A stretch of DNA of 24,923 nt from a virus: positions 1-24,923 of the IMG/VR virus record IMGVR_UViG_3300037485_000323. One strand, written 5' to 3'. Positions 1-24,923 of the stretch are shown in pieces. The notes below the pieces were generated by a model. That model did no database searches and was not told the origin of the DNA. It saw only the letters and a list, made by a program, of their open reading frames with translations. Positions within the stretch are counted from its first letter, which is position 1. Every line of letters starts with the position of its first letter. Position numbers and translations under genes: made by a program.

Positions 1-46
1 TGATATTGTTGTAGGTGGTATCGAATATCGTGTTAATAAATTTTAA
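1..46 (+). CDS. 3' end of a small unknown protein (partial)
   Basis: An open frame enters from the left edge and ends at a TAA at 44-46, giving the last 14 residues (DIVVGGIEYRVNKF). It stops just before the ribosome binding site of the next gene, the same spacing as in the following tight gene array, so it is probably the end of another small early gene. Too little is visible to say what it does. Confidence 0.45.
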   Translation, partial: DIVVGGIEYRVNKF

Positions 47-56
47 GGAGATTTAA

Positions 57-233
57 ATGACTATTTACGATCAGTTGCAAACTAATGTAGGGCAGCTAAA
101 TTATGTGGTTGGCATCTTGGCTGCTGGCAACTTAGATGATTGGGAGATCAAAGAGTACGAAGGTCTAAAATCTGATTACATCTACAAAATTGATGAATTA
201 AGATTAAAAATAAAAGCATACGAATTAATGTAA
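57..233 (+). CDS. Small hypothetical early protein, 58 aa
   Basis: Starts MTIYDQLQTNVGQL at an ATG that follows GGAGAT (47-52) with the usual spacing. It ends eight bases before the -35 box of promoter P1. The product is 58 residues, has no Cys or hydrophobic segment long enough for a membrane, and looks helical with a charged second half. I do not recognise a family. The good ribosome binding site and the fit between the left partial gene and P1 support that it is real. Confidence 0.65.
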   Translation: MTIYDQLQTNVGQLNYVVGILAAGNLDDWEIKEYEGLKSDYIYKIDELRLKIKAYELM

Positions 234-240
234 TTATGTG

Positions 241-275
241 TTGACAGCATCCTTAATAAGTATATAATGAATGTG
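241..275 (+). promoter_or_regulatory. Sigma70-type promoter P1 (repeat family)
   Basis: A perfect -35 box TTGACA (241-246) is followed by a 16-bp spacer and a perfect -10 box TATAAT (263-268). The spacer contains CTTAATAAG (252-260), a palindrome about its central base. The sequence downstream of -10, GAATGTGTAGGTT (269-281), recurs at P4 and nearly so at P3. The first gene behind it starts at 310. Match to consensus and recurrence at other intergenic spots make this a confident call; transcription starts near 275 by spacing. Confidence 0.88.
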
Positions 276-309
276 TAGGTTAGATATTTAATTATTTAGG
301 AGATCGAAA

Positions 310-489
310 ATGGAAATGCGAAATGCAATAGCAATTATTGATGAATACCGAGCTGTTATTGGTGTGCCTTATTTGGAAGCCTTGATTGAAATGAGAGCTG
401 ATTTTGAAAATGGTTACTTGAACTATGATCAAGCTCTAGCTTATCGCGTGTTCATGGCTGCTGGTCGTGAAATGTTTGCGCCTGTTTAA
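310..489 (+). CDS. Small early protein, 59 aa, paralogue of the gene at 4094
   Basis: First gene behind promoter P1; the ATG follows GGAGATCGAAA. The 59-residue product (MEMRNAIAIIDEYRAV...) lines up over its whole length with the product of the gene at 4094, also the first gene behind a near-identical promoter (P4). Shared features are an AIxxIxxY start, a central EAL, and an AYxxF near the end. No known domain is recognised. The duplicated promoter-plus-gene arrangement suggests an old duplication inside the early region. Confidence 0.75.
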   Translation: MEMRNAIAIIDEYRAVIGVPYLEALIEMRADFENGYLNYDQALAYRVFMAAGREMFAPV

Positions 490-499
490 GGAGATCGAA

Positions 500-709
500 A
501 TGGCAAAACTTAATAAAATTGAAAAAAAAGTTGAGAATCAAGTGGAAGCAATGTTTTACAAATTAGCGTTTGGTGTCCAATTCGATATTTTTGATCTGTG
601 CAAAGTAGGAAAAGATGCTAAAAAAATCTTGTTAGCGGTTGGCGATGACGGCTTAGAGGATGCTGAAATGGCAATGATCGAAGCAATCGCGCAGTACAGA
701 GTAAATTAA
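500..709 (+). CDS. Small hypothetical early protein, 69 aa
   Basis: I chose the ATG at 500 because GGAGATCG (490-497) sits immediately upstream; an in-frame ATG at 467 lies inside the preceding gene and lacks a binding site. The product (MAKLNKIEKKVENQVEA...) has a basic amphipathic start and ends with AIAQYRVN. Short proteins with this kind of ending (xAIxxYRxN) occur among phage hypotheticals, to my recollection, but no function is known to me. It lies 10 bases after its upstream neighbour, in the same transcript from P1. Confidence 0.7.
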   Translation: MAKLNKIEKKVENQVEAMFYKLAFGVQFDIFDLCKVGKDAKKILLAVGDDGLEDAEMAMIEAIAQYRVN

Positions 710-729
710 CTTTACGAAAGGATTGAATC

Positions 730-876
730 ATGTATCAAATGTCTGAAGTTGATGTAAAAGTTATTGTTAATGCTTTAAATCAAGAATTGAAATTACCAAA
801 TGGAATATTGAGTGCTGAAGAAGTTGATGCTGCAAAACAATTAATCGCTTATTACCAAAATCTTTTAGGAGAATAA
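730..876 (+). CDS. Small hypothetical early protein, 48 aa
   Basis: The ATG at 730 follows AAAGGATTGAATC, a good binding site of a different type from the GGAGAT cassette. The product (MYQMSEVDVKVIVNAL...) is 48 residues, acidic, and likely two helices. It ends one base before the next start codon, so the two are probably translated together. Function unknown. Confidence 0.65.
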   Translation: MYQMSEVDVKVIVNALNQELKLPNGILSAEEVDAAKQLIAYYQNLLGE

Positions 877-877
877 A

Positions 878-1069
878 ATGAGTACATATTATGAAGATCT
901 AAAAATGAACAATCCAGCAAAATACGCTGATCGTAGGATTGCAGGAACTTTAGATAAAGTTGCATTAAAAAACATGATCCGCGCTTTATCTATTTTGCCT
1001 TTACTTAATACAAATGAAGATGAAATTCGTTTGGCTGCTGCCAAAAGGTTGATTAGAAATAGGTACTAA
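878..1069 (+). CDS. Small hypothetical phage protein, 63 aa
   Basis: Starts one base after the preceding stop, and its binding site AGGAGA lies in the last codons of that gene, indicating coupled translation. The 63-residue product has a central stretch VALKNMIRALSILPLLNT followed by a charged helix AAAKRLIRNRY. A pattern of ALSxxPxLNTxEDexRLxAAK is one I associate with small conserved phage proteins of unknown role. No catalytic motif or membrane segment is visible. Confidence 0.7.
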   Translation: MSTYYEDLKMNNPAKYADRRIAGTLDKVALKNMIRALSILPLLNTNEDEIRLAAAKRLIRNRY

Positions 1070-1093
1070 AATTAATTACTGGAGATCACGAAA

Positions 1094-1300
1094 ATGAAAT
1101 TTATTGCTCAAAATAACGGTAGATTCTACATAGAAAATCTTAGGCAAATGCGTTACTTCCCAATCAAAAAAGCCGAAGCTATAGCCATGCTTGCTAATGG
1201 TCAAGCAGAAGAAGTTAATTACTGTCCGTTTGGTCGGATAGATCTTCAAATGGCAGCAATGGAAACTCGCGCTGCAATTCAAAAAATAATGGAAAAATAA
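1094..1300 (+). CDS. Small hypothetical early protein, 68 aa
   Basis: The ATG at 1094 is part of the full start cassette GGAGATCACGAAAATG (1081-1096). The 68-residue product (MKFIAQNNGRFYIENL...) begins with an apparent beta-strand pattern and ends in a helical, charged tail. No family recognised. A reading frame on the opposite strand over the same bases lacks any start cassette and is ignored. Confidence 0.7.
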   Translation: MKFIAQNNGRFYIENLRQMRYFPIKKAEAIAMLANGQAEEVNYCPFGRIDLQMAAMETRAAIQKIMEK

Positions 1301-1301
1301 A

Positions 1302-1376
1302 ATGTTAAATATATCTCAATATTTTGTAGTTCATATTCTTGTTATGGATTTTAATGAGGAGAGCAGACCGCAATGA
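1302..1376 (+). CDS. Possible 24-aa leader peptide overlapping the next gene
   Basis: A short frame (MLNISQYFVVHILVMDFNEE, then SRPQ) runs from 1302 to a TGA that overlaps the next start codon as ATGA (1373-1376). The overlap is the classic arrangement for coupled translation, and the 70-base gap would otherwise be unusually long for this region. Only a weak GGA lies upstream and the peptide is very short, so this is tentative. Confidence 0.3.
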   Translation: MLNISQYFVVHILVMDFNEESRPQ

Positions 1377-1591
1377 CTAAAAATGAAGCATTTTATATGT
1401 CATTAGACAAATGGAAATTGTTGGAACATATTTGCGATGAATTTGATAATGCAATTAGAAGCGATTTAGAACATGGTGTTAAATCATTAAACGAAATATA
1501 TGCGGCTAAATTTTTTAAAGAATATCCCGAATTAAATAAATTTGCAGGATATTTAAATCAACTGCGTGAAATTTATGGATTGGATGAATAA
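1373..1591 (+). CDS. Small hypothetical early protein, 72 aa
   Basis: The ATG follows GAGGAG (1357-1362). The product starts MTKNEAFYMSLDKW, and the next gene's product starts MTKDEAFEKFW; the shared MTK(N/D)EAF start suggests that the two proteins share an N-terminal element, although the rest does not align by eye. The body is acidic and helical with aromatic residues. The stop overlaps the next start by one base (TAATG). Function unknown. Confidence 0.7.
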   Translation: MTKNEAFYMSLDKWKLLEHICDEFDNAIRSDLEHGVKSLNEIYAAKFFKEYPELNKFAGYLNQLREIYGLDE

Positions 1592-2166
1592 TGACTAAAG
1601 ACGAAGCATTTGAGAAGTTTTGGAATACGGAGATAGTTTCTGCTGTAACTGGTAGTGTTGATACAGCCATGTGGGGCGATATTGATAGAAACGATACTGC
1701 CTATATATTTATGGCTGGATTCAAAGCCTGTAAAGAAGCATTAGAACAGCCAACAGTCACAGAATTAAATGACGAATACTTGCGTGATACTTATGTGCAA
1801 GGGTTATCACAGCCAGCACAAGAACCTGTGGCGTGGATTAATGTTAAAGATAAATTGCCGCCAGTTAATATTGAGGTTTTAACTTACGATAAACATCACG
1901 AAAAACAATATTTTTTAACTTCAATTATTATTGAAAATGTAGATAAATTTTATTTCAATGCGTTTACTCATTGGATGCCATTGCCTAAAGCACCCAATGA
2001 AACTAACACCCACCCTGCACCATCATGGCAAGGATTAAGTGATGATGAAATATGGAATATAGCAAATTTTTTAGGTAAAAATAAAGAATGGGATTATCCA
2101 GTTATGTTTGCTAAAACTATTGAGAAGGTTTTGAGGGAGAAAAATAATGCAAAAATAATCAAATAG
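1591..2166 (+). CDS. DUF551-like phage protein, 191 aa
   Basis: The middle of the protein carries the DUF551 signature: a WINVKDKLPP start near residue 82 and a closing THWMPLP near residue 127, with a strand-rich segment between them. DUF551 domains are widespread in phage early regions, often joined to other short modules, and have no established function. The N-terminal third (MTKDEAF...) resembles the start of the preceding gene. The C-terminal third (LSDDEIWNIANF... then FAKTIEKVLREKN) matches a pattern common at the ends of such mosaic phage proteins. It is the last gene before promoter P2. The assignment rests on recalled motifs. Confidence 0.75.
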   Translation: MTKDEAFEKFWNTEIVSAVTGSVDTAMWGDIDRNDTAYIFMAGFKACKEALEQPTVTELNDEYLRDTYVQGLSQPAQEPVAWINVKDKLPPVNIEVLTYDKHHEKQYFLTSIIIENVDKFYFNAFTHWMPLPKAPNETNTHPAPSWQGLSDDEIWNIANFLGKNKEWDYPVMFAKTIEKVLREKNNAKIIK

Positions 2167-2170
2167 AGTA

Positions 2171-2205
2171 TTGACATAATCCTTAATAAGCATACAATGT
2201 AGTTG
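2171..2205 (+). promoter_or_regulatory. Sigma70-type promoter P2 (repeat family)
   Basis: TTGACA (2171-2176), a 16-bp spacer and TACAAT (2193-2198). The spacer again contains the palindrome CTTAATAAG (2182-2190). The downstream block GTAGTTGTGGTT (2199-2210) is a diverged copy of the one at P1. It lies between the DUF551-like gene and the gene starting at 2238. Confidence 0.8.
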
Positions 2206-2237
2206 TGGTTGTTATTAATTTATTGGAGATTACGAAA

Positions 2238-2447
2238 ATGGCAAATGAAGAATTTTTTAGTTACGTTAATAGTTTTTATGGAAATGCTGGCATTTATAAC
2301 ATGGGATTTGAAGAAGATTGTATTCGAGCTGCTATTGAAATAGTTCGTTTAGGAAATCGTTTTGGAGTTCCTTTTTGTGGTGACAGTTTAGATCGTGAAC
2401 ACGTTTTGGTTGTGCTGCAAGAGAATTTCAACGGCATTAACGCATAA
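2238..2447 (+). CDS. Small hypothetical early protein, 69 aa
   Basis: First gene behind P2. The start is the ATG at 2238 in the cassette GGAGATTACGAAAATG (2225-2240); an upstream in-frame GTG at 2205 falls in the promoter's initial transcribed region and is rejected. The product (MANEEFFSYVNSFYGNAGI...) is acidic, with two Cys and an alpha-helical look. No family recognised. Confidence 0.72.
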   Translation: MANEEFFSYVNSFYGNAGIYNMGFEEDCIRAAIEIVRLGNRFGVPFCGDSLDREHVLVVLQENFNGINA

Positions 2448-2462
2448 ATGGAGATTACGAAA

Positions 2463-2768
2463 ATGAAATATGCAAATCATCATGGTTATTCAGATGTAAA
2501 TCCCTACGAAGTTGTCAAAGTTATTTCAGAAAAATGTTTAGAGATCCGCGCCATGATCGCGGAAAAAGATCCTAGTGTTGTTACTCAGTTTGTTGTTGGC
2601 GGCTTCTCAGCGTTTAGCGACAATGCTCAAAAATGGATTATCGAATCAGATCCAGTTTGTCCAGTTTTCAGAATTAGAAAACATATTGGCGGAGATTGGA
2701 GAGATAAACATGGTAATCGTTATGTGTTAGCAGATCATCCGATTAAACACTACGACTACAATTTCTAA
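2463..2768 (+). CDS. Hypothetical early protein, 101 aa
   Basis: I prefer the ATG at 2463 at the end of the start cassette. An in-frame ATG at 2448 would read the cassette itself as MEITK, which also happens at 4274 and 5582, so it is most likely a by-product of the cassette. The protein (MKYANHHGYSDVNPYEVVKV...) has a helical N-terminal half and a strand-rich, aromatic and basic C-terminal half (IGGDWRDKHGNRYV). No catalytic motif is recognised. Confidence 0.7.
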   Translation: MKYANHHGYSDVNPYEVVKVISEKCLEIRAMIAEKDPSVVTQFVVGGFSAFSDNAQKWIIESDPVCPVFRIRKHIGGDWRDKHGNRYVLADHPIKHYDYNF

Positions 2769-2774
2769 CTAAAT

Positions 2775-2788
2775 AGCCCTTCGGGGCT
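2775..2788 (+). terminator. Short AGCCC-TTCG-GGGCT hairpin
   Basis: A 5-bp GC-rich stem closed by a TTCG tetraloop sits between the stop at 2768 and the next start cassette at 2795. There is no T-run behind it, so it is a poor intrinsic terminator. It may instead act as an RNA processing or stability element that sets apart the SprT-like gene. Confidence 0.4.
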
Positions 2789-2807
2789 TCTACTGGAGAT
2801 AACGAAA

Positions 2808-3272
2808 ATGGAATTAATTGAAGCGCAGCAGTTAGCAAAAGAACTTATGCAGCAGCATAATGTTTCTCACTATCATTTCAAATTTGATAATGCTGTTAGG
2901 CGATTTGGTTACTGCAACTACTCTAAAAAAACAATTAGCCTAAGTAAAAAAATAGTTAGCTTAAATGATCAAGCTACAGTCAAAAATGTAATCCTGCACG
3001 AAATCGCTCATGCGATGCTCGGTCATGGTTACGGTCATAATGCCACATGGGTGCGTACCGCAAAATCAATTGGCTGCGATGGTAAACGCTGCTACAGCCG
3101 CAATGAAGTATCAACACCTAAATTAAAATATTCTGTTATCTGTACAAACTGCAAAGGTAAATGGAAACGCGCAAAAAAACCAATTAAAGGTTTAGCGTGT
3201 GGTAGCTGCTGCAAGAAATTTAATGGCGGCAAATATTCTAAAGAATTTATTTTTGAAGTAGTTTTAAATTAA
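2808..3272 (+). CDS. SprT-like zinc metalloprotein, 154 aa
   Basis: The HEIAH motif at residues 64-68 (catalytic Glu 65) followed by GHGYGHNATW gives the HExxH plus third-His pattern of the SprT-like/Spartan zinc metallopeptidases, with His 77 the likely third ligand. The C-terminal part holds a zinc-ribbon-like set of Cys pairs (C112/C115 and C131/C134), as in other SprT-family members. Cellular SprT-like proteins cleave DNA-crosslinked proteins; phage versions are common but not well studied. The start is the cassette ATG at 2808. It is the last gene before promoter P3. Family assignment is strong; the phage role is inferred only. Confidence 0.88.
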   Translation: MELIEAQQLAKELMQQHNVSHYHFKFDNAVRRFGYCNYSKKTISLSKKIVSLNDQATVKNVILHEIAHAMLGHGYGHNATWVRTAKSIGCDGKRCYSRNEVSTPKLKYSVICTNCKGKWKRAKKPIKGLACGSCCKKFNGGKYSKEFIFEVVLN

Positions 3273-3286
3273 ATCAAATATACCTA

Positions 3287-3321
3287 TTGCAATTATCCTT
3301 AATAGGTATATAATGAATGTG
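3287..3321 (+). promoter_or_regulatory. Sigma70-type promoter P3 (repeat family)
   Basis: TTGCAA (3287-3292), a 16-bp spacer and TATAAT (3309-3314). The spacer has the same core ATCCTTAATA, but the palindrome is imperfect here (CTTAATAGG, 3298-3306). The following GAATGTGTTGGTT (3315-3327) differs from P1 by one base. The -35 box is weaker than at P1, P2 and P4. Confidence 0.8.
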
Positions 3322-3347
3322 TTGGTTAGTTAATTAGGAGATAAAAA

Positions 3348-3527
3348 ATGATTTACAGATTCAGAGTTGCTGAAAATGTTTATGAGTTTGAAGCTGAAGC
3401 TGCTGTCGAAGCGATGGAGATGTGTAATCGTCAAGTAATGGATGGATTAAACATTGGTCCGTATGCTTGGCAAGATGCCATTGAGCCAAATGTTTTTTAT
3501 TGTGCTGCTGGTAATTTTTGGGATTAA
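3348..3527 (+). CDS. Small hypothetical early protein, 59 aa
   Basis: First gene behind P3; ATG at 3348 follows GGAGAT (3337-3342). The product (MIYRFRVAENVYEFEAEAAV...) starts with a strand pattern, then a helix, and ends in an aromatic stretch (FYCAAGNFWD). It is acidic. No family recognised. The sequence fits tightly between P3 and the next start cassette. Confidence 0.68.
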   Translation: MIYRFRVAENVYEFEAEAAVEAMEMCNRQVMDGLNIGPYAWQDAIEPNVFYCAAGNFWD

Positions 3528-3542
3528 TTAAGGAGATCGAAA

Positions 3543-4028
3543 ATGGAAAAAAAATTAAGTGTTCATGCTGCGGCAGCAAGATTGATCCGCCAGTACATGA
3601 AAGCAAATGGAATCGTTGGTCGCGTTAATGCTGATAGCTATGCTGGTGGTAACAGCGTAAATATCTACGTTGAAGATATGCCGCCAGCAGCCTACAAAGC
3701 TCTTGAAGATTATGCAGGTCAATACCAGTACGGTAATTTTGATGGGATGCAAGATCTTTACGAATACAGCAATGTTAATAATGACATTCCTCAAGTGAAA
3801 TACGTTTTCGTGAATAACAAAATCAACGATGAAATGCGTCAAGAAATTTGGGATTTTGCTGTGGGTTATTATGGCGGAATGATGGGTGCGCCTGTCAATG
3901 CAGGTGATGCTGGTATGTACTACCACGAAGGTATGCGAGTTTGGGGAAATGAGATCATCTATCGTGAATTTAGAAATGAAGATGGTGCATTTTGGAACTT
4001 CAAAAATAATGTTCAATTAGCTGCTTAA
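3543..4028 (+). CDS. LPD29-like phage protein, 161 aa
   Basis: The ATG follows GGAGATCGAAA. The first 60 residues have the pattern of the large polyvalent-protein-associated domain LPD29: an amphipathic helix AAAARLIRQYMKANG, then a strand, then SYAGGNSVNIYVED. LPD29 domains are found in phage and mobile-element proteins, often injected or anti-host ones, but their function is unproven. The C-terminal half is rich in Tyr, Gly and Met (VGYYGGMMGAPVNAG...) and has no recognised domain. It is the last gene before promoter P4. The domain call is from memory of the motif and moderate in confidence. Confidence 0.65.
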   Translation: MEKKLSVHAAAARLIRQYMKANGIVGRVNADSYAGGNSVNIYVEDMPPAAYKALEDYAGQYQYGNFDGMQDLYEYSNVNNDIPQVKYVFVNNKINDEMRQEIWDFAVGYYGGMMGAPVNAGDAGMYYHEGMRVWGNEIIYREFRNEDGAFWNFKNNVQLAA

Positions 4029-4033
4029 TTTAC

Positions 4034-4068
4034 TTGACTCTATCCTTAATAAGTATATAATGAATGTG
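4034..4068 (+). promoter_or_regulatory. Sigma70-type promoter P4 (repeat family)
   Basis: TTGACT (4034-4039), a 16-bp spacer and TATAAT (4056-4061). The spacer contains CTTAATAAG (4045-4053), and the bases after -10, GAATGTGTAGGTT (4062-4074), are identical to those at P1. The gene behind it (4094) is a paralogue of the gene behind P1. Confidence 0.86.
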
Positions 4069-4093
4069 TAGGTTGATTATTAAGGAGATTGAG

Positions 4094-4270
4094 ATGCAAG
4101 TTCAGCAAGCAATTGGAGTTATTGAGCAGTATGCGGTTTGTAATTTTGATGGTTGTTTCATGGAAGCCTTGTTTCAGATTGGTGATTTAGTTCGTGCTGG
4201 TGAAGCCGATCAAGAAGAAGAAGAAGCCTACCAAGCCTTTTTGCTTCCAGCCAATGAGTTTTTTCACTAA
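4094..4270 (+). CDS. Small early protein, 58 aa, paralogue of the gene at 310
   Basis: Start chosen at 4094 because GGAGAT (4084-4089) lies five bases upstream. An upstream in-frame start at 4064 would begin in the promoter. The product (MQVQQAIGVIEQYAVCNFDG...) aligns end to end with the P1-driven 59-residue protein: AIxxIxxY, central EAL, then AYxxF and a FF near the C-terminus. It differs in carrying a very acidic stretch (DQEEEEA). Function unknown. Confidence 0.75.
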   Translation: MQVQQAIGVIEQYAVCNFDGCFMEALFQIGDLVRAGEADQEEEEAYQAFLLPANEFFH

Positions 4271-4288
4271 TTAATGGAGATTACGAAA

Positions 4289-4522
4289 ATGAACTTATCA
4301 AAAGAAATACAAGAATTTGAAGAAGCGATCAATAGTGATAACTTTTTATATTCTCGGAAATGGAGAGTTAGCCAATATTCTGATAATTATAGTGTTGTTG
4401 CTTATCTTAAAGATGACATAAGCGTTAATGGAAAATCGGGATATGCCATGCTTCCATTAAAAGAAGCATTAGAAGTGCTAGAAAAAAATGGCAAAGAAAA
4501 GCCTTATGGCTCATTAGTTTAA
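4289..4522 (+). CDS. Small hypothetical early protein, 77 aa
   Basis: Start at 4289 in the cassette GGAGATTACGAAAATG; the in-frame ATG at 4274 would translate the cassette as MEITK and is considered secondary. The product (MNLSKEIQEFEEAINSDNF...) has a helix, then a three-strand-like pattern (RKWRVSQYSDNYSVVAYL), then a helix with PLKEALEVLEKNG. The fold looks compact, but no family is recognised. Confidence 0.7.
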   Translation: MNLSKEIQEFEEAINSDNFLYSRKWRVSQYSDNYSVVAYLKDDISVNGKSGYAMLPLKEALEVLEKNGKEKPYGSLV

Positions 4523-4546
4523 TCAATAAAATTAAAGGACATTGTA

Positions 4547-4687
4547 ATGATCAAAGTAACAGCAGAATTTAACGTAGAAAATGAAGAAGTAATGGATCGC
4601 TTGTTTATGATGATGGTTGAAAACTTTGGAGTTTTTATTGAGTATGATGTCGAAGAAATAGAGGAGAATGAATGTGGAATTAACTGA
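4547..4687 (+). CDS. Small acidic hypothetical protein, 46 aa
   Basis: The ATG at 4547 follows AAAGGACATTGTA. The product starts MIKVTAEFNVENEEVMDRLF and is strongly acidic at its end. It overlaps the next gene by up to 20 bases in another frame, which points to translational coupling. A reading frame on the other strand over the same bases has no usable start signal. Function unknown. Confidence 0.6.
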   Translation: MIKVTAEFNVENEEVMDRLFMMMVENFGVFIEYDVEEIEENECGIN

Positions 4688-4835
4688 AGAAATTGTGACT
4701 GAATTAGCGCGAAATGTTTGTTTAGCATCTACTGACTTTGATGGCGCGTATGGTATAGATTATGTTGAGTACGTTTTTACAATTGATGAATTAATGGTGC
4801 TGGCTCAATCATTAAACAAATTAGAATTATTTTAA
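4668..4835 (+). CDS. Small hypothetical early protein, 55 aa
   Basis: Starts inside the preceding gene. The ATG at 4668 sits almost on top of its binding site GAGGAG (4661-4666). The in-frame GTG at 4674 has proper spacing and may be the true start, shortening the product by two residues. The product (VELTEEIVTELARNV...) is acidic and helical. Its last codons form the first unit of a 10-bp tandem repeat. Function unknown. Confidence 0.6.
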   Translation: MNVELTEEIVTELARNVCLASTDFDGAYGIDYVEYVFTIDELMVLAQSLNKLELF

Positions 4836-4855
4836 ATTATTTTAAATTATTTTAA
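4826..4855. repeat. Three 10-bp tandem repeats of ATTATTTTAA
   Basis: ATTATTTTAA occurs three times head to tail at 4826-4835, 4836-4845 and 4846-4855. The first copy forms the end and stop of the preceding gene. The AT-only block lies just upstream of promoter P5 (-35 at 4865), where an A/T-rich element could help RNA polymerase binding, or it may simply be slippage. Confidence 0.85.
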
Positions 4856-4864
4856 TCAATTTGC

Positions 4865-4900
4865 TTGCAGTTAAACTATTTTAGGAATATACTGATCTTG
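4865..4900 (+). promoter_or_regulatory. Sigma70-type promoter P5 (diverged member)
   Basis: TTGCAG (4865-4870), a 17-bp spacer and TATACT (4888-4893). It lacks the CTTAATAAG palindrome but keeps the downstream CTTGTTGGTT block (4897-4906) seen at the other promoters. The gene at 4933 follows. It is less close to consensus than P1, P2 and P4. Confidence 0.68.
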
Positions 4901-4932
4901 TTGGTTGATTATAAATTACTGGAGATAACGAA

Positions 4933-5211
4933 ATGAATGTAGAAAAACTTTTAAATAACTTGCCTAAAATTCCTGTGTTAGTTTGGAATCGTGAAACTAG
5001 AGAGCATGAAGATAAATTAGTAGCTCCCCATGCTTTTATTCGTGATGGATATTTATATGTAAGCGCGGAAAATGGTGATGATGCTGCTGATTACTACGGT
5101 GAATATCATGGTGGTTATGCTTGGATCAATCCGATTTTGGAAAAATTTGCTACTGATAACAAATGTTATTGGGAGTGGCAAGATGCAGGTACTATCGTTT
5201 TAAATAAATAA
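4933..5211 (+). CDS. Hypothetical early protein, 92 aa
   Basis: First gene behind P5, with a start cassette one base shorter than usual (GGAGATAACGAAATG, 4921-4935). The product (MNVEKLLNNLPKIPVLVWNR...) has alternating strand patterns and an aromatic, acidic centre (DYYGEYHGGYAWINP). It looks like a small beta-rich protein. No family recognised. Confidence 0.72.
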   Translation: MNVEKLLNNLPKIPVLVWNRETREHEDKLVAPHAFIRDGYLYVSAENGDDAADYYGEYHGGYAWINPILEKFATDNKCYWEWQDAGTIVLNK

Positions 5212-5230
5212 TTTACTGGAGATTACGAAA

Positions 5231-5458
5231 ATGGGAAATTTAGAAACAATCGAAGTGTACGGTGTGGAGTTTGATGTTTATTATACTTACCATACTTACG
5301 CTGATCCCTTTGGAACTGGTGACAGTCCTACCGAACATGAGATCGACATAACATCTATCGAAGATGTTACAGGTACTCAAAATCTGCAAGAGCTTCTTGG
5401 TGAAACAGTCATAGATAAAATTATCGAACAAATTAGTTTAATTGAAACAGGGAGATAG
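5231..5458 (+). CDS. Small conserved-type phage protein, 75 aa
   Basis: Start cassette GGAGATTACGAAAATG at 5218-5233. The product is beta-rich and acidic at first (VEFDVYYTYHTYADPFGTG...), then PTEHEIDITSIEDV, and ends in a helix. Short phage proteins with the order 'YYxYxx ... PxExExxIxxI ... C-terminal helix' are common in my recollection, but have no known function. A minus-strand frame over the same bases is not supported. Confidence 0.7.
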   Translation: MGNLETIEVYGVEFDVYYTYHTYADPFGTGDSPTEHEIDITSIEDVTGTQNLQELLGETVIDKIIEQISLIETGR

Positions 5459-5460
5459 TC

Positions 5461-5535
5461 ATGGAACTTTATCTTATATGTTACTTTGCTGGTGTTGTTA
5501 CTGTCATGGTCTTAAATGACGCTTGGAGTCGGTAA
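5461..5535 (+). CDS. Tiny membrane peptide, 24 aa
   Basis: An ATG at 5461 follows GGAGATAGTC (5451-5460), so it has the same type of binding site as its neighbours. It encodes MELYLICYFAGVVTVMVLND plus AWSR. Residues 2-18 are hydrophobic enough to span a membrane. Its stop overlaps the ATG at 5535 as TAATG. The good binding site and the gap it fills make it plausible; nothing further is known. Confidence 0.5.
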   Translation: MELYLICYFAGVVTVMVLNDAWSR

Positions 5536-5597
5536 TGTCAGAAGATCAATTCCAAGCCGAAATTATGGATGAACTTAAAATTATGGAGATTACGAAA

Positions 5598-6272
5598 ATG
5601 TCAAAGAAAACTGGTTTAGATCTGCTGCGCGAACCTTTCCCCGAACATCAAATTAGCAAATTACCAAAGCCTACTAAGGCTCAAACAGATCAAGTACGAG
5701 CTGATTTTAAAGCTGGTATGCGCTGTAATGTATGTGGTGGATGGCATCATAAAGATGTAGTTCATTTAGATTACGTTGGTCACGCTGCATTAACTGATCG
5801 TTTATTAGATTGCGATATTAACTGGAATTGGAAGCCTGTAGAGTTTGGCGGTATTCCTGCTGGTGCATTAGATGCAAATGGCGGTATGTGGATCGAGCTT
5901 ACAGTCTGCGGAGTATCACGATTAGGCTATGGTGATGCTGAAGGTAAAGTTGGCGGCAATGCTGTAAAAGAGCGAATTGGTGATGCTTTGCGTAATGCAG
6001 CAATGCGATTTGGTGCAGCACTTGATCTGTGGCATAAAGGCGATCTTCATGTAGAAGATGAAGAAGCTCCAGTAGTTAAAGTTTCACCAGCACCTAATTT
6101 GAAGCCACCATTTATTGATGTATTTAAATTAAAAACATTATTGCAAATATCAAAAGATGGTGAAGAATTAAAAAAACAATGGGCTGCAATATATCCTCAA
6201 GTTAAAAATACTGAATATTTAACAGAAGTCCAAAAAGAATACGAAGATATGAAATCTTTATTCAATGTATAG
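5598..6272 (+). CDS. Rad52-like single-strand annealing protein, 224 aa
   Basis: The core (residues about 57-148) has the pattern of phage Rad52-fold annealing proteins: DYVGHAALTDRLLD, a WIELTVCGVSRLGYGD strand pair, and the helix GDALRNAAMRFGAALDLW, which matches the Rad52 motif 'xDALKRAxRxFGxALG'. An N-terminal C43xxC46 with H50/H51 could bind metal. The C-terminal third is charged and likely flexible. Such proteins anneal complementary strands during phage recombination, and the Gp157 and SSB genes downstream agree with that. The start is uncertain: the cassette ATG at 5598 has the better context, but an in-frame ATG at 5535 with GGAG upstream would add 21 residues. Confidence 0.72.
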   Translation: MSKKTGLDLLREPFPEHQISKLPKPTKAQTDQVRADFKAGMRCNVCGGWHHKDVVHLDYVGHAALTDRLLDCDINWNWKPVEFGGIPAGALDANGGMWIELTVCGVSRLGYGDAEGKVGGNAVKERIGDALRNAAMRFGAALDLWHKGDLHVEDEEAPVVKVSPAPNLKPPFIDVFKLKTLLQISKDGEELKKQWAAIYPQVKNTEYLTEVQKEYEDMKSLFNV

Positions 6273-6284
6273 GAGATCACGAAA

Positions 6285-6473
6285 ATGCAAACTCAAAAAC
6301 AAAAGATTATTGAATGTTTGAAACAAGGCTGGAAATCACCACTTGATGCACTATATGAAGCAGGTACGATGAAGCTGTCCACTAGAGTAAGTGAGCTACG
6401 TCATGAAGGTTATAAGATCAATGACGTTTGGCATGAAAGCGGAAATTATAAACTTTACAGGATGGAGAATTAG
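6285..6473 (+). CDS. HTH_39-type helix-turn-helix protein, 62 aa
   Basis: The whole 62-residue product reads as one small winged helix: QKQKIIECLKQGW, then LDALYEAGTMKLSTRVSEL as the helix-turn-helix, then RHEGYKINDVWHESGNYKLY as the wing. This is the layout of the HTH_39 family of phage proteins. It has a full start cassette (6272-6287) that overlaps the end of the preceding gene. It could be a regulator of early promoters or a replication accessory factor; nothing in the sequence decides between these. Confidence 0.78.
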   Translation: MQTQKQKIIECLKQGWKSPLDALYEAGTMKLSTRVSELRHEGYKINDVWHESGNYKLYRMEN

Positions 6474-6474
6474 C

Positions 6475-6972
6475 ATGGCTTCGTTATACGAAATTACTAT
6501 GGAATATAAACTTATTGAGAGTAAGTTAAATGAAATGAATCTTGATGAACAAACGGTAGCCGATACTCTTGAAGGCGCAATCGGAGAGTTTGAAGAAAAA
6601 GCAATCAACATTGCTAAGTTCATTAAGAATCTTGAAGCTCAAGCTCTAGCGATCAAAACTGCTAGAGAAGAAATGTCATTACGAGAAAAAGCCATTGAAA
6701 AGAAAGCGGCAGCCGTAAAAGAGTATCTAAAAGTTAATATGCAGTCCTGTGGCAAGATTAAAATTGATTCGCCATACTTTGCATTAACTCTTAAAAAGAA
6801 TCCTTCAGCAGTCGTTATTGATGATGCTGGAGCTATTCCAACCGATCTTTATGTGTATCCCGATGCACCAGCACCATATCCCGATAAAAAAGCCATTGGT
6901 GATCGCCTTAAAGCTGGTGAAGAAATTAACGGAGCGCATCTTGAGCAAGCAGAAAGACTCGAAATCAAATAA
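6475..6972 (+). CDS. Gp157-family phage protein, 165 aa
   Basis: I start at the ATG at 6475, with GGAGA at 6464-6468, which gives MASLYEITMEY, the usual Gp157 beginning. The order of features matches the family (siphovirus Gp157, Pfam PF05565): DTLEGAIGEFEEKA, a long coiled-coil stretch (about residues 38-95), KIKIDSPYFALTLKKNP, IPTDLY, then DKKAIGDRLKAGEEINGAHL near the end. Gp157 proteins sit in phage recombination clusters with annealing proteins and SSB, as here; a Streptococcus thermophilus phage member was linked to phage resistance phenotypes. The exact role is unsettled. Confidence 0.9.
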   Translation: MASLYEITMEYKLIESKLNEMNLDEQTVADTLEGAIGEFEEKAINIAKFIKNLEAQALAIKTAREEMSLREKAIEKKAAAVKEYLKVNMQSCGKIKIDSPYFALTLKKNPSAVVIDDAGAIPTDLYVYPDAPAPYPDKKAIGDRLKAGEEINGAHLEQAERLEIK

Positions 6973-6990
6973 TTATATAAAGGAAATATC

Positions 6991-7407
6991 ATGGCTAGTG
7001 TAAATCGTGTAATTTTAATTGGTAATGTAGGAAATGATCCCGAAATAAGGTTTATGCCTAATGGTGATGCCGTTGCAAATTTTAGCATTGCTACTACTGA
7101 TCAATGGAAAGATAAACAAGGGCAAAAACAAGAATCTACAGAATGGCATCGAATCGTGATGTATCGTAAACTTGCTGAAATTGTTCAATCTTATGTAAAG
7201 AAAGGCGCATCACTTTATATTGAAGGTCGATTACAATCAAATAAATGGACTGATAAAGCTGGAATTGAGCGTACTACAATTCAGATCATTGGAGAGCAAT
7301 TGCGTATGTTAGGCGGAAAACAAGATAACCATGCTGAAGCTCCTCAAGCTGCTGAACCTAATTACAATACTCCAATAGATCAGATCGATAGTGACATTCC
7401 ATTTTAG
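6991..7407 (+). CDS. ssb: Single-stranded DNA-binding protein, 138 aa
   Basis: Typical bacterial-type SSB: MASVNRVILIGNVGNDPEIR start, FSIATTDQWKD, STEWHRIVMYRKLAEIVQSYVKKGASLYIEGRLQ in pieces of the OB fold, then a Gln/Ala/Asn-rich linker and the acidic tip DSDIPF (residues 133-138) that docks partner proteins. Length is near the usual 140-180. It has AAAGGA upstream (6979-6984). It protects exposed DNA strands and works with the annealing protein two genes upstream. Confidence 0.96.
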   Translation: MASVNRVILIGNVGNDPEIRFMPNGDAVANFSIATTDQWKDKQGQKQESTEWHRIVMYRKLAEIVQSYVKKGASLYIEGRLQSNKWTDKAGIERTTIQIIGEQLRMLGGKQDNHAEAPQAAEPNYNTPIDQIDSDIPF

Positions 7408-7415
7408 GAGTTTAT

Positions 7416-7625
7416 ATGTCAAACAATTCAATTACTGGCGATAAATTGACAAGTAAAATTGGCAATAAAGAGCAGAAGAAAAAATTTGATGAAGGATTTG
7501 ATCGTATATTTGGTAAAAGTAAAAATCAATATAGTGAAGATTGGCAAGACTCAGAGCGTGATCGCGCCATAGCTCAAAATGGAAACTCAGGCGAACACTA
7601 TCAGGAGTTAAAAAATGAAAAATAA
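7416..7625 (+). CDS. Small charged hypothetical protein, 69 aa
   Basis: The ATG follows AGGAGTTTAT, whose first bases are part of the ssb stop region. The product (MSNNSITGDKLTSKIGNKEQ...) is highly hydrophilic, with many Lys, Glu, Asp and Asn, and has FDEGFDRIFG as its only hydrophobic element. Probably helical or disordered. It overlaps the next gene by 11 bases. Function unknown. Confidence 0.68.
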   Translation: MSNNSITGDKLTSKIGNKEQKKKFDEGFDRIFGKSKNQYSEDWQDSERDRAIAQNGNSGEHYQELKNEK

Positions 7626-7911
7626 ATTAACAGCATTATTAGTAATATTATTTTCAATAACAGCTCAAGCCGAAGCGATCATGTGGTGCATGAATACAGA
7701 AGGCGGAAAGATTATATTGACTGATGAAAAATGTACTAATAAATCAGGAAATATTGCTTATATTCTTGGAAGCTCAAACCAATCAACAACAATGGGATGT
7801 TGGACAAGTGACTCAATGGCAATTCATGTATTATGGTCTGAAAGATATTTAAGATCTTATGATTACAATGGATGGACAATTGTAAATAAAAATAACCCAT
7901 CAACAATGTAA
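7615..7911 (+). CDS. Secreted periplasmic protein of unknown function, 98 aa
   Basis: The first 19-21 residues are a signal peptide: MKNK, a hydrophobic core LTALLVILFSITA, and a cleavage site around AQAEA. The mature part has GGKIILTDEKC (C40), then MGCWTSDSMAIHVLW (C62), a C25 early on, and an end of RSYDYNGWTI. This layout, GGxIxLTxxxC ... GCWTxDxxxIHVxW ... LRSYxxxGW, is one I recall in small exported proteins of betaproteobacteria and their phages. No function is known to me. An exported phage protein expressed with early genes could act on the envelope, for instance in superinfection control. The binding site AGGAG is in the preceding gene. Confidence 0.75.
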   Translation: MKNKLTALLVILFSITAQAEAIMWCMNTEGGKIILTDEKCTNKSGNIAYILGSSNQSTTMGCWTSDSMAIHVLWSERYLRSYDYNGWTIVNKNNPSTM

Positions 7912-7921
7912 GGATTAAATC

Positions 7922-8068
7922 ATGAACAATGGAAGATTTCCTCGCAGCAGCCAAGAAGCATTTGGCATTAGATTAAAATCTGAAGATTTTGAAGAAGAAA
8001 AATCATCATCTTTTTATGTTATATGTATATCAATATTGCTTATTTCAATAGTTTTATTTTTTAAATAA
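7922..8068 (+). CDS. Small membrane protein with FPRSSQEAFG motif, 48 aa
   Basis: The ATG follows AAGGATTAAATC. The product starts MNNGRFPRSSQEAFGIRLKS, continues with an acidic patch, and ends in a single membrane segment (about residues 31-47, FYVICISILLISIVLFF). The motif RFPR(S/T)xxEAFG at the start followed by one C-terminal membrane helix is one I associate with small phage proteins from betaproteobacterial hosts. Function unknown. Confidence 0.65.
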   Translation: MNNGRFPRSSQEAFGIRLKSEDFEEEKSSSFYVICISILLISIVLFFK

Positions 8069-8080
8069 TTGGAGAAAATA

Positions 8081-8293
8081 ATGTCATGCAATAAAGAAGA
8101 TTGTAATCAAGGTAGATGTGATTGTCCGAGAGATAATGATAAAGCTGTTGTAGTTGCCATACTATTTATAGTGCTAATTTTTTCGACAGCTTTGGGTATG
8201 TGGAAATTATTTAACATTGGCAAAGGATCGCCATGCGCGGTTGAAATTGCATTTAAAGATAGTAAAGCTACTTACATTGGATCAAGTTTATGA
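8081..8293 (+). CDS. Small Cys-rich membrane protein, 70 aa
   Basis: Start at 8081, with GGAGAAA (8071-8077) upstream. An alternative in-frame ATG at 8069 is not sensible because it overlaps the binding site. The N-terminus holds a Cys cluster (C3, C8, C13, C15; CNKEDCNQGRCDCP), followed by a membrane segment at about residues 26-45 (AVVVAILFIVLIFSTALGMW) and a 25-residue tail. Small phage proteins with a CxQGRxCxC motif plus a membrane helix are common hypotheticals. The stop overlaps the next start as ATGA. Confidence 0.68.
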   Translation: MSCNKEDCNQGRCDCPRDNDKAVVVAILFIVLIFSTALGMWKLFNIGKGSPCAVEIAFKDSKATYIGSSL

Positions 8294-8469
8294 ATGGCTG
8301 CCATACGGATTTAGTTCCTGATCGCAATCAGCATGAAAAAGTATTTCATAGCAATGGAAAAACATCATGGGATTATAACTTTACACGCGAGTGTCAATAT
8401 TCAAAACAATCCATTGTTGATGATGGATGTAACAACTGCAAAAATAATGCAAAACTTATATTAGGATAA
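8290..8469 (+). CDS. Small Cys-containing hypothetical protein, 59 aa
   Basis: Begins in an ATGA overlap with the gene before it. The product (MNGCHTDLVPDRNQHEKVFH...) has Cys at 4, 35, 47 and 50, the last two as CNNC, with WDYNFTRECQY in the middle. The four Cys could bind a zinc ion. A pattern of WDYxFTRxCxY ... CxxC is one I recall from other phage hypotheticals. No function assigned. Confidence 0.62.
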   Translation: MNGCHTDLVPDRNQHEKVFHSNGKTSWDYNFTRECQYSKQSIVDDGCNNCKNNAKLILG

Positions 8470-8473
8470 AATT

Positions 8474-8698
8474 ATGGAAAAAACTAAAGAACAAATTTTA
8501 ATGGATGCAATCAATGAATTTCGAGGAGTAGATACTACTGTAGGATTTATTGTTATGGCTTTTGATGAAAGTGCTTATCAATCTCATTTATTTAATATAA
8601 ATGAATATAGTGCAATTGCAGCAGTTTCTATTCTTAAAAATGATTTGCTAAATAAAGATTTATTTGGTGAAAAGAAAGCAAAAGAACAATCCGTATGA
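8474..8698 (+). CDS. Small hypothetical protein, 74 aa
   Basis: The ATG lies four bases after the preceding stop with TAGGA at 8462-8466 upstream. The product (MEKTKEQILMDAINEFRGVD...) is mildly acidic, with a helix at each end and a hydrophobic centre (TVGFIVMAFD). Its stop overlaps the next start as ATGA. No family recognised. Confidence 0.66.
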   Translation: MEKTKEQILMDAINEFRGVDTTVGFIVMAFDESAYQSHLFNINEYSAIAAVSILKNDLLNKDLFGEKKAKEQSV

Positions 8699-8760
8699 TT
8701 TTAACCAATGAAGAAATGAAAGAGCTTAGAAGGCTATTAAAGATCCCAAAACCTAAATAA
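8695..8760 (+). CDS. Possible 21-aa protein at the end of the early array
   Basis: Reads MILTNEEMKELRRLLKIPKP then K, starting in an ATGA overlap. Its last 8 bases overlap the end of the endolysin gene on the other strand. It is short, but the overlap style and the amphipathic, basic helix are coherent. If it is real, the early and late transcripts collide tail to tail inside coding sequence. Confidence 0.42.
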   Translation: MILTNEEMKELRRLLKIPKPK

Positions 8761-9783: not shown

Positions 9784-9972
9784 CTATCCCTTAGTTACCG
9801 TTTTAATAAATGCTGAAACTACACCACCTAAAGCTGCGCCTTCACCCCAATTAACACCGCTATAATGAGATCCAAACAAGGAAACAACAAATCCTATTCC
9901 TTGCCAAGTAGAGGACTCAGCAATACGCGCCAAAAAGAAAGCATAAATAAGTTTTAATTTTCTTTTAATCAT
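9784..9972 (-). CDS. Putative holin, 62 aa
   Basis: A short basic N-terminus (MIKRKLKLIYAFFLARIAES) is followed by STWQGIGFVVSLFG and, after a turn, GAALGGVVSAFIKTV, giving two hydrophobic segments. The ESSTWQGI motif and the overall layout resemble small holins of proteobacterial phages. It lies directly upstream of the spanin pair and endolysin, as expected in a lysis cassette. Its start overlaps the stop of the preceding gene (TAATG) and no clear binding site is seen, so its translation is probably coupled, which may keep its level low. Confidence 0.7.
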   Translation of the reverse strand: MIKRKLKLIYAFFLARIAESSTWQGIGFVVSLFGSHYSGVNWGEGAALGGVVSAFIKTVTKG

Positions 9973-14467: not shown

Positions 14468-15311
14468 ATTGCGAAGGACTCAATTGTGAAGTTGTAAACC
14501 ATGCGCCATCAGGAGTTAATGTACTAATTTCATGAGTAACATTTTGAACTGGAAATCTTCCATTAGCTTTAGGTAATGATGAAGTTAAATTAATTGTTCT
14601 TCCATTAGTTATAATTGGATTGAATTCTGATTTAACAGTAAAACCAGCTTCCCAATAAGAAGGATAACCAACAAGACCAGTTTCAGGACCAACATCAATA
14701 ACTACGTTATCTCTAGTTCCATTGTTAGGAAATATGGTTACAGTATTATTTTCAATTACCAATGGAAATGATGCAGCTCTTGCTGCCGTTTGAATCTGAT
14801 CAATTAAAGATCCTGATAAATATTGGTTTTGTAAAACTGCGGTTGCACCACCAACATTATTAAATGCCCAATTACCACCCAATTGCTTAGTAAGAGATTC
14901 AATAATATATTCAGCTTTAGTTGCGCCAACATAACTATTTGCTGCAACTGGCAATGCTTTATTGTAATACCCTGCAACTGCCGCGCAAGTAAATGAAATA
15001 TCAGGCATTGAACTTAAATCAATAAAACTTGAAATTATAGTTCCTGAAAATACCTGATTTAAAATAGATCCTTGATTACCTGCACTAACAGTTACGGATT
15101 GATTTTGAACAGCCACCATATTTGCACCAGTACTTGAATACTGATTCATTTGCGCCAATGTCATGCCATATACTTTTAATTGTAATTGACCAAAAGCACT
15201 ATAACCACCGGGATTAGTTATAGTTGCTGAACACCGCAATCCTTTAAGATCTAGCACTTCACTATTTGGGCTAGTAAATTGAAGGCTTATTTCTCTTACT
15301 GCATACGTCAT
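14451..15311 (-). CDS. Baseplate hub protein, 286 aa
   Basis: A beta-rich protein: REISLQFTSPNSEVLDLKGL, RCSATITNPGGYSAFGQLQL, VYGMTLAQMNQYSS. This and its place between the plug-like gene and the spike fit the baseplate hub of compact contractile phages (the gp27/gpD-like role). No enzymatic motif is visible. It overlaps the spike gene by 17 bases and starts in an ATGA overlap with the gene before it. Confidence 0.78.
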   Translation of the reverse strand: MTYAVREISLQFTSPNSEVLDLKGLRCSATITNPGGYSAFGQLQLKVYGMTLAQMNQYSSTGANMVAVQNQSVTVSAGNQGSILNQVFSGTIISSFIDLSSMPDISFTCAAVAGYYNKALPVAANSYVGATKAEYIIESLTKQLGGNWAFNNVGGATAVLQNQYLSGSLIDQIQTAARAASFPLVIENNTVTIFPNNGTRDNVVIDVGPETGLVGYPSYWEAGFTVKSEFNPIITNGRTINLTSSLPKANGRFPVQNVTHEISTLTPDGAWFTTSQLSPSQYVAIN

Positions 15312-24478: not shown

Positions 24479-24923
24479 TTATTTGCCTTTTTCTAAGAAT
24501 CGTTGAACAAAATTGCCTTTGCGATAGCTTACAGCATTATCCATGCCATGAGCAACGCTAGATGCGCCCTTACCATCGAGATAAGCACCTAAGAATGTAA
24601 CTTTCGCACTTTTAGGAGCATCTAAGCCAAGTTTTTTAATACCATACGATGCCATTTCGCCTAAATCCATTTCAGCGTGATCAAACGCGCCAATATGTTT
24701 AGATAGCTTGTCGTATAGTTTGTTTTTATCAGCAATGTTTTTATGAACTTGCTTGATAATTGCAGCAGCATCCATGCCAGTAGCGCGTTCACCTTCTTTA
24801 GGTGGATTGGCATTGCCGCCTTGAGGAATTGGATCAGGTACTTCATCAGCAACTTCTTCTGATTCTGACATTTCTTCATCAGGCATTTCAGGATCTGTTT
24901 CTTCATCAGATACAGCTTCTGCA
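24479..24923 (-). CDS. DUF2213-like prohead protease/scaffold protein, C-terminal part (partial)
   Basis: Open to the right edge of the window; the last 147 residues are visible. They begin with a strongly acidic stretch (Glu/Asp-rich, [20 protein letters not shown]) typical of the scaffold part, then [20 protein letters not shown] and [20 protein letters not shown], the usual end of DUF2213 proteins. The family's N-terminal half is thought to be a prohead protease; that half lies outside the window. Internal ATGs (such as 24886) are not starts. Confidence 0.8.

Follow-up and report, generated by a model that had tools for sequence, protein, structure and literature searches.

The small helix-turn-helix (HTH) proteins known as Aca (anti-CRISPR-associated) repress promoters carrying an inverted repeat inside the core promoter, as reported for every bacterial family whose Aca proteins were tested (PMC9410906). 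The closest described case is that of Aca10 of Pseudomonas citronellolis, a dimeric repressor of anti-CRISPR genes (PDB 7xi5) acting on the acrIC7-acrIC6-aca10 promoter, which was found in electrophoretic mobility shift assays to bind AATACGCTCATTGAGCGTATT over a TTGCAA-N16-TATTCT promoter, the proven site ATACGCTCATTGAGCGTAT overlying these same boxes (PMC9410881). Here we describe a family of promoters identified in a 24.9-kb virus contig from IMG/VR (24,923 nt, referred to below as the window), where four of them (P1–P4) carry a 15-bp operator-like element, ATNCNNANTNNGNAT, between the -35 and -10 boxes. These promoters and their counterparts in other phages are probably strong sigma-70 promoters that drive short ORFan genes early in infection and would be shut off by an Aca10-like autorepressor with a scattered regulon. 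The promoters, the symmetry of the operator, its fixed register and the co-occurrence and position of an Aca10-like gene were all read from the sequence; binding, repression, timing and any role in counter-defence are inferred.

The sequence-only reading of the window had placed four near-identical promoters with a 16-bp spacer at 241, 2171, 3287, and 4034, and all four were found there (Table 1). As it had also stated, three of the spacers hold the palindrome CTTAATAAG (at 252, 2182, and 4045), the one at 3287 holds CTTAATAGG, which differs by one base, and the block after the -10 box (GAATGTGTAGGTTAG or similar) is conserved in all four. CTTANTAAG occurs four times in the window (the fourth copy, at 14886, lies outside the promoters) versus 0.59 expected, a count reached in none of 100 shuffles; the four occurrences of ATCCTTAATA are all at the four promoters, and the control read backwards contains none. 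With the matrix of the wider family, P1–P4 scored 30–39 bits, the next-best position in the window 3.9, and the maximum of 60 Markov shuffles was 14.2. The case which the sequence-only reading had named as speaking against it, that of boxes kept beside a diverged spacer, does occur, at 4865, and P1–P4 keep the spacer element. This fifth promoter, the ortholog of which in L006 (3321) has ACCTAATAGGT, shows that loss of the dyad need not entail loss of the boxes.

The palindrome first noticed is real, but at 9 bp it is shorter than the unit conserved in the spacer, which measures 15 bp. Upon comparing 59 distinct sites (numbering the first T of the -35 box as 0), the bases A8, T9, C11, and A14 and their counterparts T16, G19, A21, and T22 were found at frequencies of 97–100%, the variable positions being 10, 12, 13 and 17, 18, 20 (±2, ±3, and ±5 from the centre). 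Since the invariant bases pair about position 15, the conservation of ATNCNNANTNNGNAT is itself two-fold symmetric: the symmetry at the centre of the element is 0.741, versus a mean of 0.305 (standard deviation 0.10) over all centres. Complete 15-bp palindromes exist, such as ATACTTAATAAGTAT and ATGCTTAATAAGCAT, as well as ATTCTTAATTAGAAT in L046-48. A second class of promoters has a 17-bp spacer (-10 GATACT or similar), in which the distance from the element to the -35 box is unchanged and the -10 box has moved by one base. As a position weight matrix could bias the symmetry result, the plain pattern AT.C..A.T..G.AT was also counted in loci chosen without the motif, namely 28 non-redundant loci (198 kb) fetched by the HTH protein alone. 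Its 61 occurrences rank first of 420 permuted palindromes (mean 5.0, standard deviation 5.3), and TTG lies exactly 8 nt upstream in 44 of them (4.4% expected by chance). These data support the earlier proposals that the dyad between the boxes may be an operator and that several transcripts may form one regulon.

The wider family was collected by pattern scans of the viral collection seeded by P1–P4 and by protein-led scans. This search among relatives, which the sequence-only reading had recommended, brought the family to about 90 distinct sites, the phages concerned being uncultured ones from freshwater. In the reversed-sequence controls, 2 matches passed the first threshold, and with the refined matrix no match scored more than 12 bits; L025, L027-L029, L034, L075, L077, and L095 were set aside as chance matches, and those of them that were checked had no gene start behind the site. 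At almost every site, counting from the first base of the -35 box, the start codon of a short protein follows after 58–69 nt, and a dozen or more protein families are involved. A search with the tight motif of 84,980 prokaryote species (bacterial and archaeal, 257 Gb), each represented by a single genome, gave no match. A consensus promoter of the host was considered and rejected on these grounds, the relaxed motif giving one chance-like match lacking a -35 box.

The candidate regulator is a family of 64–73-aa HTH proteins with the core LSQSKAASLIYTTQARWSNYETGKSRMHPAAWELF. Among 52 loci carrying the gene of the DIPQVKY family, the motif is present in 28, of which 23 encode the HTH protein, as do none of the 24 motif-less loci; the five motif loci without the HTH gene are short or partial, and in one of them, L067, the gene begins at the very edge of the contig. 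Fetching loci by the HTH protein alone gave 71, 62 of which carry the motif. Of the nine others, six start with the HTH gene itself or no more than about 420 nt ahead of it, and the remaining three have variant operators (L162 and L202) or a weak partial match (L207). The HTH gene is located 572–1446 nt downstream of a same-strand motif promoter in almost all loci, and stands directly behind a motif site in L030 (9837), L195 (3800), and L192 (3932), which is a layout of autoregulation.

In the case of the window, this gene is found on an adjoining contig, L030/L138 (18,930 bp), along with terminase and portal genes and a replication gene. The Aca10-like gene (L138 9897-10103) is preceded by a motif site at 9837, and L138 has one more motif promoter, at 603 on the minus strand. 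The two contigs share an exact 127-bp overlap at their ends, across which the reading frame L138:17971-18930 runs on into the window. An overlap of precisely this length is the typical leftover of a k = 127 assembler at a graph break, from which we infer that the window and L030/L138 belong to one phage. The likely regulator of P1–P4 is the Aca10-like protein encoded on L030, and not the HTH protein at 6285 which the sequence-only reading had named as a possible binder: the latter is an HTH_39 winged-helix protein and was detected in no other motif-bearing locus.

The family profile of the candidate regulator matches Aca10 (7xi5) with an E value of 2.3e-13 (3.4e-9 with the L030 protein alone), and about half of the residues are identical over 52–54 positions. 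The two systems have in common a homologous small HTH protein, a single palindromic site within a TTG-N16-TA promoter in the same register, and a regulator gene located in or behind the regulated operon. When the Aca10 promoter was fitted together from the published pieces, which gave one consistent sequence, its palindrome was found to have its centre at the base that is central in the present element too, with agreement at six of the eight invariant bases. The half-site reads ATGCTWA here versus ACGCTCA in Aca10, and unlike Aca10, one protein would face several separate promoters per genome. Those neighbouring genes that were tested match no known function in Pfam, NCBIfam, or PADLOC.

According to the mechanism proposed, one 15-bp operator fills the spacer of each early promoter, and would be bound by a dimeric Aca10-like protein whose own gene lies behind the same type of promoter. 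Host RNA polymerase would fire all the early promoters once the DNA enters; the Aca10-like protein would then accumulate with the other early products, cover the spacers and exclude RNA polymerase, so that the whole promoter set would be switched off, the Aca10-like gene included. In the phage to which the window belongs, this set would consist of P1–P4, L138:603 (-) and L138:9837, the promoter at 4865 having escaped.

Several points weigh against this mechanism. The similarity between the present element and the Aca10 operator is modest in comparison with random palindromes (P about 0.05). Among the DNA-contact residues tested in Aca10, Q22, Q37, and R44 (PMC9410881), only the first is kept, the other two being serine here (the next residue, R45, is kept), and the protein was named Aca10-like rather than Aca10 on account of these two changes. 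The variable positions of the dyad show no covariation across sites (z -1.1). The contigs are related by descent and the motif group is nearly one clade in the DIPQVKY tree (with one member, L049, lacking both motif and HTH protein), and the co-occurrences counted above therefore cannot be taken as separate events. The motif contigs G015, G027, G028, and G031, which are all fragments, carry no such HTH gene; AlphaFold modelled the HTH protein poorly (predicted local distance difference test score 69), and a fold search with this model gave no structural match. Lastly, no known acr gene was recognised.

The same sites might have arisen without any regulator, if one strong promoter cassette had been copied and shuffled between genes and its spacer kept for the sake of promoter strength only. 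The 5' leaders and Shine-Dalgarno regions are indeed near-identical between sites, the same promoter precedes different gene families and stands at shifted places in relatives, and a stem-loop, GCCCTTCGGGGC, abuts the promoter in L005 (9589), L007 (1032), and also L006. We nevertheless consider this explanation unlikely, since sites differing at most of the other spacer positions retain exactly the mirror-symmetric bases, the element stays put while the -10 box shifts and co-occurs with the Aca10-like gene, and the tight motif is absent from the prokaryote genomes searched. The sequence-only reading had attributed the conserved spacer to selection or recent duplication; selection is supported, and duplication, as the near-identical leaders and Shine-Dalgarno regions indicate, contributes too.

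That the operator is bound by another protein is less probable still. A 62-aa HTH protein is encoded divergently from the first early promoter (L138:692-880, L005:7532-7720), and its gene adjoins a motif promoter in back-to-back orientation in L005, L030, and L041, which is the classical place of a regulator; but within the viral collection it is limited to four loci and to one lineage, is absent from the other motif-bearing lineages, and was rejected as the regulator. If the binder were a host factor, sites would be expected in host genomes, yet the 257 Gb searched gave none for the tight motif. The least probable of the alternatives, to which we give very little credence, is that the Aca10-like protein binds the dyad as an activator, or is an autoregulator of the antitoxin type. 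Its HTH domain resembles those of the antitoxins HigA and MqsA too, but the promoter boxes are already near-consensus, no toxin partner was seen, and a site filling the spacer normally blocks the polymerase, the Aca proteins tested being repressors (PMC9410906).

Table 1. Positions of the promoters, operator-like dyads, early genes, and other features in the window.
Feature	Position	Strand	Remarks
Promoter P1	241..268	+	-35 TTGACA 241-246, 16-bp spacer, -10 TATAAT 263-268; 34.4 bits
P1 operator-like dyad	249..263		ATCCTTAATAAGTAT; fits ATNCNNANTNNGNAT
Small early ORFan behind P1	310..489	+	59 aa; AIAIIDEYR family; behind motif in L064 too
Promoter P2	2171..2198	+	TTGACA-16-TACAAT; 30.4 bits; orthologous site L005 8740
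P2 operator-like dyad	2179..2193		ATCCTTAATAAGCAT
Small early ORFan behind P2	2238..2447	+	FFxYVxxFYG family, 16 loci
Promoter P3	3287..3314	+	TTGCAA-16-TATAAT; start codon 3348, next gene 3543; 38.1 bits
P3 operator-like dyad	3295..3309		ATCCTTAATAGGTAT, the CTTAATAGG variant
161-aa early protein, second gene behind P3	3543..4028	+	DIPQVKY family; directly behind motif in many relatives
Promoter P4	4034..4061	+	TTGACT-16-TATAAT; start codon 4094; 39.0 bits; orthologous site L006 3800
P4 operator-like dyad	4042..4056		ATCCTTAATAAGTAT
Small early ORFan behind P4	4094..4270	+	Same family as 310-489 by inspection
Decayed fifth promoter	4865..4893	+	TTGCAG-17-TATACT; TTGGTT leader retained, dyad lost
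Shine-Dalgarno-to-start blocks	299, 490, 1081, 2225, 2450, 2795, 3532, 4276, 4921, 5218, 5585, 6272		
End overlap	24797..24923		127 bp identical to L138 18804-18930 (end of contig L030/L138)

The window has a G+C content of 36% and carries genes for a sheath, a baseplate wedge, and a tape measure, which point to a tailed phage with a contractile tail. Positions 1-8700 form a rightward early region, and the remainder a leftward structural region. Near the predicted transcription start (about +1 to +5; for example 274-279), TGTAG(T/G) is conserved; it is asymmetric and lies outside the dyad. Twelve early genes are preceded by a near-fixed Shine-Dalgarno-to-start block, GGAGAT(N0-2)CGAAA(A)ATG, which varies much less than ribosome sites normally do. 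As regards a possible RNA element in the leader, the folds of 51 leaders were no better than those of shuffled sequences (mean z 0.11), and an Rfam search of the window gave no match. The stem-loop GCCCTTCGGGGC is found between early genes (window 2776-2788; L005 9345 and 9589; L007 1 and 1032). None lies directly before P1–P4, the sole copy in the window not abutting a promoter. The gene of the 62-aa HTH-like protein is situated ahead of a replication initiation gene, and this protein has almost no relatives in IMG/VR. At L138 6634-9840, a 1068-aa portal-like protein, possibly a portal fusion, has a long C-terminal part with GGSGSGKSE, reminiscent of zeta-toxin-like kinases. In another phage lineage (L130/L132 of G012, L042, and L037), the same small early genes and promoters are grouped in an island, with the portal gene on one side and head-morphogenesis genes on the other.

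The families of short proteins driven by these promoters are common to phages with different terminases (Terminase_3 in L005, Terminase_6 in L042), and searches of 50,697 records of phages and 72,556 of plasmids gave no match to the 161-aa family. The small driven genes are good candidates for phage counter-defence proteins, a reading adopted because of two things only, the association with Aca and the similar early regulatory sequences of archaeal viruses (PMC11065993). It is conceivable, though on balance slightly doubtful, that one Aca10-like protein governs at least 5–7 dispersed early promoters per phage together with at least 10 ORFan families, forming a counter-defence pool that crosses terminase types, and that the operator might be used as bait. 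The operator is specific enough, with no match of the tight motif in the 84,980 prokaryote species, to be used as a tag when looking for putative counter-defence genes among uncultured phages of freshwater. Other spacer dyads precede the homologous 161-aa gene in unrelated phages: ACGTAAgcgggTTACGT in L088 (5929; shuffle P 0.005), TTACAAAttgtTTTGTAA in L049 (5902, 5936; P 0.02), ATAACAaactcTGTTAT in L094 (5906; P 0.07), and AGCATTTAATGCT in L078 (5236; P 0.08), the last of which also carries CI-like and Cro-like genes with AGCATTTAAAGCT between them. This suggests that phages often put the 161-aa gene under the control of their own repressor, whatever that may be.

A repressor operator lying between the -35 and -10 boxes is also found in the ant promoter of phage P22, where it is bound by Arc, but Arc is a ribbon-helix-helix protein serving a single promoter, and its operator measures 21 bp. 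The conserved inverted repeats of phiC31, the C1 operators of P1, and the SPbeta repeat elements likewise combine one repressor with many scattered operators, which serve to keep the prophage silent. In the motif-bearing contigs tested, including those of 49 and 48 kb, no tyrosine integrase (PF00589) was matched and no strong HTH_3 repressor was found, the phage of the window being incomplete. The PeSL cassettes of T4-type phages, which consist of a mobile early promoter and a stem-loop moving between genes, recall the stem-loops abutting the promoters of some relatives; PeSL cassettes have no operator, their hosts are T4-type, and the window's stem-loop (2776) does not adjoin a promoter. In archaeal viruses, a conserved early regulatory sequence precedes anti-defence genes (PMC11065993), and there as here numerous small early genes at dispersed places in the viral genome share a signal at the level of the promoter; those promoters are archaeal, whereas the present ones are of the bacterial sigma-70 type and have a dyad as well as an HTH protein as likely partner. 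The Aca1–Aca9 systems share with ours a small HTH autorepressor and an inverted repeat always located within the core promoter, and differ in being described as single acr-aca operons, with other operators and HTH subfamilies (PMC9410906). Promoter-embedded operators and Aca autorepression are already known, and what appears to be new is an Aca10-type regulon that is dispersed over phage genomes and can be recognised from sequence. Aca repressors having been known from single acr-aca operons, the many-promoter version would, if true, be a master off-switch of the whole immediate-early programme.

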